Source of the DNA: Schaalia odontolytica
GTDB taxonomy: Bacteria; Actinomycetota; Actinomycetes; Actinomycetales; Actinomycetaceae
Direction of reading: 5' to 3'
DNA length: 64,000 nt
Assembly (NCBI RefSeq): GCF_031191545.1
Contig: NZ_CP133472.1
Coordinates: 806,001-870,000, forward strand
The translations under genes were made by a program, and so were the position numbers. This document shows positions 8,401 through 57,242 of the stretch, one piece after another. The notes under the pieces are model-generated. The model was not told the origin of the DNA. It ran no database searches and saw only the letters and a list, made by a program, of their open reading frames with translations. Numbering within the stretch: position 1 is the first letter of the stretch; each line of letters starts with the position of its first letter.

Positions 8401-8571
8401 AAAACCCGGCACTCAGCATCCCACCAACACACGTCGCAGACTACTCAACCAAACGAAACACCACGCCGCAGCCGCCCGACAGCAATCGTCGAGCGTCGAG
8501 GGATGTGCGTCCTTCATCATTTGTCGTTTGTCAATAGACTGCCTCGATAGCACTTGTTTTCAAGGGAGCTG

Positions 8572-9096
8572 CACCCGATCCGTCGGCATTACACCCCTTC
8601 TGTTCGGGTGCAGCGCTACACAACGGGTGTAGCGCTACACAACGGGTGCACCACGGCACGAAACCCCAACGGGAACACCGGCCCACAACGGAGCACAACA
8701 CGCCACCACACGCCACCACACACCACCACAACAGCCGCAACACAAGCAGCAGTACACCCGATCCGTAAGCACTACACCCCTTCTGTTCGGGTGCAGCGCC
8801 CCGCAACAGGTTCAGCGCTACGTAACGGGTGCAGCGCTACGTAATGGGTGCAGCGCTACGTAATGGGTGCAGCGCCACACAACAGGTGCAGCGCTACACA
8901 ACGGGTGCACCACGGCACGAAACCCCAACGGGAACACCGGCCCACAACGGAGCACAACACGCCACCACACACCACCACAACAGCCGCAACAGAAGCAGCA
9001 GTACACCCGATCCGTAAGCACTACACCCCTTCTGTTCGGGTGCAGCGCCACACAACAGGTGCAGCACCACACAACGGGTGCAGCACCCCACGGCGG
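8572..9096. repeat. Array A of the 19-bp repeat family (three 39-bp cores, 11 units)
   Basis: Three copies of a 39-bp core, at 8572-8610, 8755-8793 and 9004-9042, begin CACCCGATCC and end TTCGGGTG, so the ends form an inverted repeat. Each core runs directly into tandem 19-bp units of the type gtgcagcgctacgtaacgg: 2, 6 and 3 units. Between arrays is a repeated ~100-bp linker rich in CA and CCA (gtgcaccacggcacgaaacc start). The unit length of 19 is not a multiple of 3 and all frames across the array are short or repetitive, so I read it as non-coding. The flanks 8401-8571 and 9097-9282 show no gene. Confidence 0.95.
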
Positions 9097-9282
9097 TTGC
9101 TCGCCCTTAACACGCACACCACCCCCCTGAAATACGCGACCAAGACTAGCCACAACGAGCTCCTTCACCAAGATCCGTTGTAACCACCACTAGAACCTAG
9201 ACGCCACACAACCAGCGGGTCCTCCAACCTGCGCAGCATGCAACACGCGCGACTCCTCCGATCAAGTGTCGGTCGCCTACGC

Positions 9283-10371
9283 TCAACGCCGCCATCCAGC
9301 CGTGTGAAAACGCCGATTCGGACCGTCGCAGGCCTGCGTGGGCTCCGCCCACAACCTCTGAGCCGACGCAGGGATCGATGCTTGGTACGGCATCAACAGC
9401 TCAGCCACCCACGCTCTCAGTCTGTTCATGTCCTCATAGTCCGGCCACGAAACCCTGTAGATCCTCCATCCGGCGCTGCGCAGGTCGTTCTCGCGTTGGA
9501 TCCATTCGCGTTTCGCCTCAGAAAACTCAGCGTCAGTCATTCCAAGCTTGCCAATCCCATCGAACTCAAAGATGATCATGAGGCCAGGAAGCGCGATGTC
9601 TACGAAGTAGCGCCGCCCATTGACGACGACCTCATGCTGAGTGACCGCATCGAATGAACAAACAGTCTTCAATACCCACAGCAAGGCAGCCTCAGCCGGA
9701 TTCTCGCATCCAGGATCAGCGGCTCGAATAATGGCTTCAGCGCGCTGTGACGGTATGTTGCCTTGTCGTTGGTGCCACTCGGCCAGCCTACCCAGCATCT
9801 GCGACTTGACTCCATCCGCCCGGCGACGACATTCTTCCTGCGAAAAGGGGGAAAACGACGACTGCCTATGCAGCACCATACAGATCCCAACAAATGCACT
9901 CAGGTTCTCTGACCAGCAAGCCATTCGCACCGCAGCACCTATGACGCCTTCAGCTAGGACACCTCCAACAGCCTGCACTTCTCTCTCTAGCGGAGGAATA
10001 ACAGACCATCGCACCGAAACTGCGGGCACGTGAAAGCCTGCGGCACGAATCAGTCGCAGAGGCTTGCTGCCGCGGCGAGTATGAGCCCAAACAAATACGT
10101 CCGGATTCGCCTCCCACAGAGGGATGCCTCGACAGGCGAGTGAGCTTGCCCCAACAAATACTCGATCCCCACTCCCTGACGCGTGAACAGCGAGGAGGCG
10201 CGCTCGCGCCACTGTTGTCCAAGTACTCCATGGAGTCTCAAGAAGACGCTGATCTTCAACTCGAACGTAGTACCCCCGCATCACGTGCAAGCAAGCATCT
10301 GATTCCTTTTCCGCATGGGCCATTCGGAACCCGTCCGAGGAACGAATTACTGTCAATTGGTGGCTGTTCAT
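9283..10371 (-). CDS. DUF559/Vsr-like PD-(D/E)xK nuclease-domain protein
   Basis: 362 residues. The N-terminal half resembles the winged-helix plus linker seen in actinobacterial AbiEi-like or DUF559 proteins (YYVRVEDQRLLE, VFVGASSLACRGIPLWE). The C-terminal half (~220-340) has the nuclease core: ENPAEAALLWVL, VVNGRRYFVDIALPGLMIIF, EFDGIGKLG and ENDLRSAGWRIYRVSWPDY. Candidate catalytic residues are the Glu of ENPAE, the Asp of FVDIAL and the Glu of FEFDG. This family is common in actinobacterial genomes and its function is poorly known; DNA cleavage or a toxin/defence role is possible. Its base composition is visibly lower in GC than the flanking housekeeping genes. It is alone and lies between repeat arrays A and B. 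Confidence 0.75.
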   Translation of the reverse strand: MNSHQLTVIRSSDGFRMAHAEKESDACLHVMRGYYVRVEDQRLLETPWSTWTTVARARLLAVHASGSGDRVFVGASSLACRGIPLWEANPDVFVWAHTRRGSKPLRLIRAAGFHVPAVSVRWSVIPPLEREVQAVGGVLAEGVIGAAVRMACWSENLSAFVGICMVLHRQSSFSPFSQEECRRRADGVKSQMLGRLAEWHQRQGNIPSQRAEAIIRAADPGCENPAEAALLWVLKTVCSFDAVTQHEVVVNGRRYFVDIALPGLMIIFEFDGIGKLGMTDAEFSEAKREWIQRENDLRSAGWRIYRVSWPDYEDMNRLRAWVAELLMPYQASIPASAQRLWAEPTQACDGPNRRFHTAGWRR

Positions 10372-10545
10372 ATGTGGATTCTTGCAGCCTCACACGCCCG
10401 TTTCATCAACACAATCACCCGCTGTGGATAACCGACAACACCAACAAGGGGCTGTGGAAAGAGCGTATTGCGTTCCTATCCTCGTCGCAGTTAGATACGC
10501 TCTCCCCTACACTGACCGCGCCTTTACGTGTTCGAGACTGCGCTA

Positions 10546-11085
10546 CACCCGATCCGTCGGCATTACACCCCTTCTGTTCGGGTGCAGCGCTACGTAACGG
10601 GTGCAGCGCCCCACAACAGGTACAGCGAACCACAACAGGCACACGGCCACACAGCACTCCAACGGGAGCAGTGGCCCACAACGGAGCGCAACACACCACC
10701 ACAACAGCCGCAACACAAGCAGCAGTGCACCCGATCCGTCGGCATTACACCCCTTCTGTTCGGGTGCAGCGCCCCACAACGGGTGCAGCGCCACGCAACG
10801 GATGCAGCGCCCCACAACAGGTACAGCGAACCACAACAGGCACACGGCCACACAGCACTCCAACGGGACAGCGCGCAATCAAGCGCCAACCGCCACACAG
10901 CACTCCAACGGGAGCAGTGGCCGACAACGGAGCGCAACACACCACCACAACAGCCGCAACACAAGCAGCAGTGCACCCGATCCGTCGGCATTACACCCCT
11001 TCTGTTCGGGTGCAGCGCCCCACAACGGGTGCAGCGCCACGCAACGGATGCAGCGCCCCACAATAGGTGCAGGGCACCGCAACGG
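10546..11085. repeat. Array B of the 19-bp repeat family (three 39-bp cores, 11 units)
   Basis: Cores lie at 10546-10584, 10728-10766 and 10974-11012, almost identical to those of array A, followed by 3, 4 and 4 tandem 19-bp units (for example gtgcagcgccacgcaacgg). The linkers between arrays are again CA/CCA rich. The second contains an internal duplication of ccacacagcactccaacggg. Same orientation as array A. The 5' side (10372-10545) between the nuclease start and the array shows no gene. Confidence 0.95.
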
Positions 11086-54953: not shown

Positions 54954-55253
54954 CCTGTCTGTCTCTCGTCAAGAAGGCCTCAGCCCGACACCAGAGTACA
55001 GCGCTGAGCGGGCTTTTCGCGGTACCCGGTTTCTAGCCCTCTTCGTCAATGCCGCGGCTGCGCTCTCTGGGTCTCCTCAGGGAAACGACGCGCGAGGCTG
55101 GGCAGCATTGCGCGACTGAGCGAGACATCGCATGAGCCACCGATTACCGCAATGTCTAGTCAATACTGGCGCATCTAGCGAAGCCGTGGAGCATTGCTAG
55201 CAACAAGGTTCCTTCCATCATCGGCTGGCTCAACAGCGCATAGCGCGCTGCAC
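54954..55253. other. Gene-free spacer between the DUF1697 gene and array C
   Basis: 300 nt with no supported gene on either strand and no strong hairpin; it should hold the promoter of the DUF1697 gene. Confidence 0.5.
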
Positions 55254-55384
55254 CCGTTACGTGGCACTGCACCTGTTACGTAACGCTGCACCTGTTACGT
55301 GGCGCTGCACCTGTTACGTGGCGCTGCACCTGTTACGTGGCGCTGCACCCGATCAGAACGGGTGCAATGCCTACGGATCGGGTG
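55254..55384. repeat. Array C of the 19-bp repeat family, inverted orientation
   Basis: Five tandem 19-bp units (for example ctgttacgtggcgctgcac, starting at 55254, 55273, 55292, 55311, 55330) lead into a 39-bp core at 55346-55384 that begins cacccgatc and ends gatcgggtg. It is the reverse complement of the arrangement in arrays A and B. No gene lies within it. Confidence 0.93.
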
Positions 55385-55485
55385 CAGCGCCTCCCCGAGT
55401 AGCGCAATGCCCCTACACAACAAGCCATAATGCGCTTCCTTGGTAGCGGTGCCGATACGGAGGGTGCCGGAGGGTTGCGAGGCCT

Positions 55486-55580
55486 GGCTGCGGTGCCCAT
55501 GGGCGCTGGTTAGGCGCGGCTGCGGTGCCCGTGGGCGCTAGTTAGGCGCGGCTGCCGTGCCCGCAGGCGGTGGCGGGGCC
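55486..55580. repeat. 32-bp tandem repeat
   Basis: Two copies of a 32-nt unit (55486-55517 and 55518-55549, starting ggctgcggtgccc, ending ttaggcgc) with two mismatches, and a decayed third copy from 55550. It lies in the spacer downstream of cysS. Confidence 0.85.
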
Positions 55581-55784
55581 TGGCCGGGCTTCGAGACGAC
55601 GCGCCGAGCGAAGCTCGCGGCGCGGACGGCGAGCGGGCGGGCCACCGCCCACGGCGCAGCCCGGCCCACAGCCACAGCTCAACCGCGGATCAGCCGACGC
55701 TCCAGGTGGCACCGTCGCGAACGGCGAGCGGGCGGGCCACCGCCCACGGCGCAGCCCGGCCCTCAGCCTCGGCTCAACCACGGA

Positions 55785-57242
<1,458 letters not shown>

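Follow-up and report, generated by a model that had tools for sequence, protein, structure and literature searches.

Why does a single gene for a predicted nuclease lie between two arrays of the same 19-bp repeat in the chromosome of Schaalia odontolytica, and do gene and repeat belong together? We addressed this question in a window of 64,000 nucleotides (the whole stretch of DNA analysed, G000:C1:806001-870000, where G000 is the source genome, a single contig of 2.456 Mb), from which the observation proved to extend far beyond the window itself. Conserved bracketing of the gene, dispersed gene-less copies of the repeat, a repeat type that tracks the N-terminal half (N-half) of the protein, a catalytic signature and a CTTGT tag are all seen in the sequences. 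On these grounds we consider it probable that nuclease and repeat are a cognate pair, with recognition through the N-half and an organisation like that of a REPtron but with an unrelated enzyme. The same comparisons suggest that gene and repeat make up a selfish or regulatory pair so far undescribed.

The two arrays, A and B (Table 1), share one orientation and have three cores apiece, as the preliminary description had stated; its count of 11 units in each is replaced here by 13 unit-like decamers in A and 12 in B (at most two mismatches, spaced mostly at 19 bp). An alignment of one array to the other spans 529 columns with 78% agreement and scores 458; none of 100 shuffles exceeded 31. The single lower-GC gene reported between them was recovered as a 362-amino-acid open reading frame (ORF) with 57.2% GC, compared with 65.6% for the window.

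In the predicted structure of the encoded protein, the N-half (approximately residues 1-218) is AbiEi-like and the C-terminal half (C-half, approximately residues 223-331) resembles the nucleases Vsr and I-Bth0305I, with conserved residues E227, D258, E269, D271 and K275. The nuclease assignment draws on this predicted structure and on paralogues that match MTES_1575/DUF559; the only Pfam match of the window protein itself is a sub-threshold one to MTES_1575 (E = 0.049). The window protein is likely a DNA-cutting enzyme, with the N-half as the part likely to read DNA. Among 124 homologues in the genus, the catalytic signature takes the form EDED in 111 and EDEE in another 6, and the ratio of nonsynonymous to synonymous substitution rates (dN/dS) was 0.06-0.22 in 15 of 16 half-gene comparisons, the computable ones, drawn from 8 of the 28 orthologue pairs. 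A known defence system was considered and rejected: PADLOC returned no match to the window protein and weak matches to paralogues (L058 and L059 to AbiEi, with a best E of 3.7 × 10−5 for L059; L060 to PDC-S37 and Hhe), and NCBIfam gave weak matches only, to L059 and L060.

Read in gene orientation, each repeat element consists of n forward 19-bp units, a turn and two inverted units; in the opposite reading, CTTGT precedes the core. Of the 78 distinct cores of the window's repeat type (W, below) in the fetched loci, 47 have CTTGT on one side at a distance of 45 nt or less, in 36 of them at exactly 19 nt, compared with a mean of 5.0 and a maximum of 12 in shuffles; 1 core has it on the other side. 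It also stands at a fixed position in 14 of the 14 T cores and 9 of the 12 Q cores, so that a one-sided CTTGT is common to the repeat types linked to the window locus despite their different unit motifs; the repeat family of another homologue, 416k, is without it (1 of 36 in one count, 0 of 71 in another). A second motif, GTAG, is present in 62 of the 78 W cores, at one internal place in 52, and is rare elsewhere (T, 3 of 14; Q, 0 of 12; 416k family, 2 of 71). When folded as single strands, five of six cores were more stable than shuffles (z from −3.3 to −7.8), and the T core showed no excess (z = −1.5).

Repeats beside orthologues and other homologues

Intact orthologues of the window gene are present in 8 of the 35 genus genomes, G000 included (identity at least 56%, at least 429 bits; the next match scores 282), and all eight lie, at one syntenic locus, between repeats in direct orientation. 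Each locus also carries apbE and an oxidase-like gene, for which the label flavin adenine dinucleotide/iron–sulfur (FAD/FeS) oxidase is our own reading of the sequence rather than the result of a family search. The flanking repeats fall into the types W (G000, G026, G019 and G005), W-like (G017), Q (G001) and T (G020 and G022). Over the 28 pairs among these eight orthologues, repeat similarity followed the identity of the N-half closely (Spearman 0.90, Mantel P = 0.0005), that of the C-half weakly (0.40, P = 0.04) and that of the adjacent oxidase gene and apbE at −0.08 and 0.25, respectively, with the neighbour-gene sequences fragmentary at some loci. With C-half and oxidase held, the partial correlation between repeat and N-half was 0.89 (P = 0.0035). 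Two comparisons illustrate the pattern: G026 and G022 have 96% identical oxidase genes, 44% identical N-halves and a repeat score of 0.13, and the C-halves of G005 and G001 are 89% identical (synonymous divergence, dS, 0.51), with dS saturated in the N-half and different repeats. On the basis of eight genes, then, it seems that N-half and repeats have been swapped jointly at one locus. A ninth orthologue, in G023, is found in two pieces on contigs C20 (L124) and C27 (L125), split at approximately residue 180 between the two halves, each piece approximately 1.27 kb from a contig end; the split is suggestive of the insertion of a larger element, and the pieces were not joined.

The arrangement is not peculiar to this gene: five further homologues in G000 (416k, 1609k, 746k, 1003k and 938k) are each bracketed by a distinct structured repeat of their own, that of 416k being regular, with forward 19-bp units followed by inverted ones. 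To score bracketing throughout the genus, each ORF's two 1-kb flanks were compared by alignment, direct as well as inverted, using the 124 ORFs of at least 180 amino acids (20 shorter ones were dropped, and some of those retained are probably antisense or neighbouring ORFs). In a first test of 120 of these, 4 having flanks that were too short, a score of at least 60 was reached by 64 of 120 ORFs and 3 of 181 controls; the known bracket of L119 in G005 went undetected here (score 30) because the ORF start was placed too far upstream. With starts set from the catalytic residue, 117 ORFs were signature-positive and 115 evaluable, of which 76 scored at least 45 and 69 at least 60, compared with 6 and 4 of 208 control ORFs and, among controls with gaps of at least 100 bp on both sides, 5 and 3 of 70 (Fisher P = 1.5 × 10−16 and 6.2 × 10−16, respectively, uncorrected for ancestry). 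Grouped at 50% identity, 29 of the 54 evaluable clusters hold at least one bracketed member. Seven genus protein matches were left unfetched (G030:C528, G012:C23, G025:C29, G032:C7, G002:C13:238682, G031:C32 and G008:C1:873082), and two minor fragment matches fall within loci already included. At L149 (G010:C2:813742-816884), two nuclease homologues with equal scores lie approximately 1.1 kb apart, probably a tandem duplication.

Beyond the family, a search of 148 genomes from other families of the class gave a match in 29 (G000 included). For the 20 best places outside G000, of which 18 were evaluable and two lay at contig ends, 11 of 18 flank pairs scored at least 45 and 9 at least 60, compared with 1 of 122 controls at both thresholds; the inverted score was the higher in 9 of these 11 bracketed cases, whereas direct repeats prevail in the genus. 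The interpretation in the preliminary description is upheld in part: the link that it suggested between nuclease and repeat is strongly supported by bracketing of all eight orthologues, co-variation of the repeat with the N-half and the same layout, with other repeats, at other homologues.

Dispersed copies and the history of single sites

Within G000, the core pattern (at most 3 mismatches) has 21 matches, compared with 0 for the same pattern read backward, at 11 places (253k, 280k, 341k, 517k, 814k, 816k, 861k, 1020k, 1076k, 1233k and 1294k). Repeats of the other homologues are scattered as well, three of the five families clearly so; the search used a joined query and scored 40 of 73 candidates, so that the counts are lower bounds. 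The 416k family occupies at least 25 positions away from its gene, the 1609k and 938k families have at least about seven or eight distant copies each, and the 1003k family has distant copies at one clear place at least. The 746k homologue (L058/L136) has long local arrays with units beginning GAAACCGCAGGCACCAC, and elsewhere one 22-bp match alone. At some gene-less sites, repeats of different nuclease families are also neighbours, no more than a few hundred bases apart (G000:C1 1572148-1572491, 483473-483994, 666468-666731, 828406-828743 and 966276-966624).

Presence of the dispersed copies is patchy. When nine gene-less G000 sites were compared with relatives, a W core was found in 25 of the 52 orthologous regions (253k, 1 of 6; 280k, 1 of 6; 341k, 3 of 6; 517k, 5 of 6; 861k, 4 of 7; 1020k, 3 of 6; 1076k, 3 of 3; 1233k, 5 of 6; 1294k, 0 of 6), some absences being those of fetched regions that end short of the site (G006 and G020 at 253k; G026 and G001 at 861k). 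At 253k, G000 has approximately 1.3 kb with four cores and an apparent insertion sequence remnant where G017, G019 and G026 have approximately 3 to 11 bases; a target-site duplication was sought there and none was seen, and inspection of 1294k and 280k yielded no cleanly readable junction. The 341k array in G005 and G006 is opposite in orientation to that of G000. At 1020k, the G006 array is of the CTGGATAGG subtype, like the flank of that genome's own 416-family nuclease, which fits recent spread; G005, however, has CGGATAGG at this site although its 416-family flank subtype equals that of G006. W cores occur in all nine orthologue-bearing genomes and, among the remaining 26, in G006 (nine) and G015 (one) only; this co-occurrence is confounded by ancestry and is therefore not used as support.

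The nuclease locus of G006 holds one array with two cores and the outer ends of A and B, and no gene. No nuclease remnant was found, a 32-amino-acid match being to the over-long start of the L119 ORF. Because G005, a close relative (flanks mostly 92-99% identical), has the gene here, as do other species, the simpler reading is that G006 lost it through recombination between arrays. The empty site that had been anticipated is therefore present in the form of a single gene-less array, but the locus is otherwise syntenic, so that movement of the gene itself is not supported. In 20 regions downstream of the oxidase gene (G006 included; G012 and G032 left out, and the G030 and G013 stretches short), only G007 and G008 have a neighbouring nuclease, in both cases with other repeats.

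Known systems and competing explanations

In REPtrons (PMC3733652, PMC8266576), the gene of a repetitive extragenic palindromic (REP)-associated tyrosine transposase (RAYT) is flanked by its own palindromic repeats, which also occur as dispersed gene-less copies, bear a short one-sided tag and are intergenic. The window locus resembles REPtrons and TIRtrons on every one of these counts: palindromic repeats flank its gene and have further copies across the genome, the tag is one-sided and the position intergenic. It differs in its enzyme (Vsr-like rather than a Y1/HUH transposase), in its tag (GTAG in REPs, compared with the shared outside tag CTTGT in the window-locus repeats), in its repeats (phased unit arrays with a turn rather than single short hairpins) and in its flanks, which are mostly direct repeats in Schaalia genus genomes. 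The Y1/HUH transposase profile PF01797 matched 0 of 10 repeat-rich genomes, compared with 5 of 14 control genomes, and mobilisation of the repeats by RAYTs was rejected on this basis. GTAG is internal to W cores and not a shared end tag. Given these two results, the pair appears to work like a REPtron without being a member, and we treat it as a distinct kind, with the reservations that its mechanism is inferred and that a kind defined by arrangement alone would fall under REPtron.

I-Bth0305I is a homing endonuclease of the EDxHD type, and the window protein is predicted to share a Vsr-like catalytic domain with it and with Vsr; the window gene, however, is intergenic, between two complete arrays, rather than inside an intron, an intein or a conserved target gene, and it has flanking repeats of its own and encodes an AbiEi-like N-half. 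From the AbiEi antitoxin of type IV toxin–antitoxin systems the protein differs in being fused to a nuclease, and no second plausible gene that could be an AbiEii-type toxin lies between arrays A and B; the AbiEii profile did not match the adjoining ApbE or a 193-amino-acid protein, the 1017-amino-acid oxidase-like gene being outside that scan. No description of a nuclease–repeat pairing was found in the open-access literature searched, titles and opening abstract lines on DUF559 make no mention of flanking repeats, and a search for MTES_1575 found nothing.

How might such a pair operate? The AbiEi-like N-half would bind the 19-bp-phased units and the Vsr-like C-half would nick or cut at or near the tag or hairpin, and this activity, together with recombination between arrays, could allow repeats to be copied, amplified and kept at intergenic sites; the gene may persist by keeping its repeats, or through host co-option. 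Across the orthologues, the unit motif varies with the N-half and CTTGT stays with the conserved C-half. We tentatively propose, as an idea that falls just short of an even chance, a second, HUH-independent kind of repeat-propagating gene in actinobacterial chromosomes, in which Vsr-type nucleases with an AbiEi-like half would drive their own phased palindromic arrays by two-part recognition, the variable N-half reading the units and the conserved C-half acting at the shared CTTGT. As to whether the nuclease mobilises the repeats, we lean mildly towards doubt. These proposals have their weaknesses: 39 of the 115 signature-positive genes are without a bracket; dispersed repeat types do not strictly match the resident nuclease type; and mobility of the repeats would be read from patchy presence rather than from a caught insertion. 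The cores at the 11 places in G000 have a nuclease gene only within the A/B pair; such scatter is one of two findings that the preliminary description had set against a link, the other being an orthologue without arrays, of which there is none among the eight (35 genomes). A strict model in which the resident nuclease makes the local copies is unsupported as a rule, given the mismatch between dispersed and resident types.

The arrays could alternatively be operators through which an AbiEi-like autoregulator with an attached nuclease, such as a defence protein, controls its own expression from the flanks, the dispersed copies forming a regulon or acting as decoys. The AbiEi-like N-half and the PADLOC AbiEi matches of L059 point this way, and phased units and N-half co-variation suit operator binding equally well; autoregulation, however, needs no downstream array of similar make-up and predicts neither a one-sided tag across unit types nor patchy dispersed copies (25 of 52), and we regard this explanation as unlikely. 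Somewhat less likely still, in our estimation, is that the flanking direct repeats are portable homology through which alleles are swapped, gained or lost by homologous recombination, with a nuclease that targets invading DNA. Allelic replacement at one locus (G026/G022, with the neighbour at 96% and the N-half at 44%), the mosaic pattern of G005 and G001, and the gene-less G006 locus, whose single array has the outer ends of both A and B, would all follow from it, but it would favour conserved flanks where the observed repeats differ by allele, and it leaves palindromic phased units, the tag and scattered gene-less copies unexplained. Finally, independent repeat elements might simply pile up in the same accessory intergenic regions as nuclease genes, much as distinct repeat families often sit a few hundred bases or less apart where no nuclease gene is present; with 5 of 70 controls with gaps on both sides bracketed, compared with 76 of 115 nuclease genes, and with a repeat type that tracks the N-half of the protein, we find such coincidence very hard to credit.

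If nuclease and repeat are a cognate pair, a rule would follow for a set of actinobacterial nuclease genes that are still uncharacterised, namely that the cognate repeat is to be sought beside the gene, and the orthologues would offer naturally matched protein–DNA pairs with an exchanged reading half and a retained catalytic half. Should mobilisation prove true, this would add a new enzymatic means by which intergenic repeats spread; should it prove false, the repeats would still point to the targets of a nuclease family of unknown function. According to PMC3733652, CGTC REPs, a large class among the palindromic repeats dispersed in bacterial genomes, apparently lack a dedicated transposase.

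Features of the window

Table 1. Positions of the repeat arrays, tags and nuclease ORF, counted from the first nucleotide of the window.
Feature	Position	Strand	Details
Array A	8572..9096	+	three cores (8577-8613, 8760-8796, 9009-9045), 19-bp units after each
Array B	10546..11085	+	three cores (10551-10587, 10733-10769, 10979-11015), 19-bp units after each
Nuclease ORF	9283..10371	-	362 amino acids; sole ORF between arrays A and B
CTTGT tag	8553..8557	+	19 nt ahead of CACCC in the first core of array A; read in sequence
CGTGT	10527..10531	+	tag form with one mismatch, at equal distance ahead of the first core of array B; read in sequence
Array C	55245..55390	-	one core (55343-55379), approximately five 19-bp units; no nuclease gene; dispersed copy

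A scan of the window with Rfam returned no family reaching the gathering threshold, and a tRNA/tmRNA scan found none. Array C had been described as lacking a nuclease, and indeed none of the six nuclease homologues of G000 is nearby; a core is also present in the orthologous stretch of G006, G017, G019 and G020 (four of the seven fetched regions). Beside it lie tandem repeats at 55486-55563 and 55621-55814 (32-bp and 95-bp units), and, by eye, similar GC-rich stretches adjoin several arrays in relatives.
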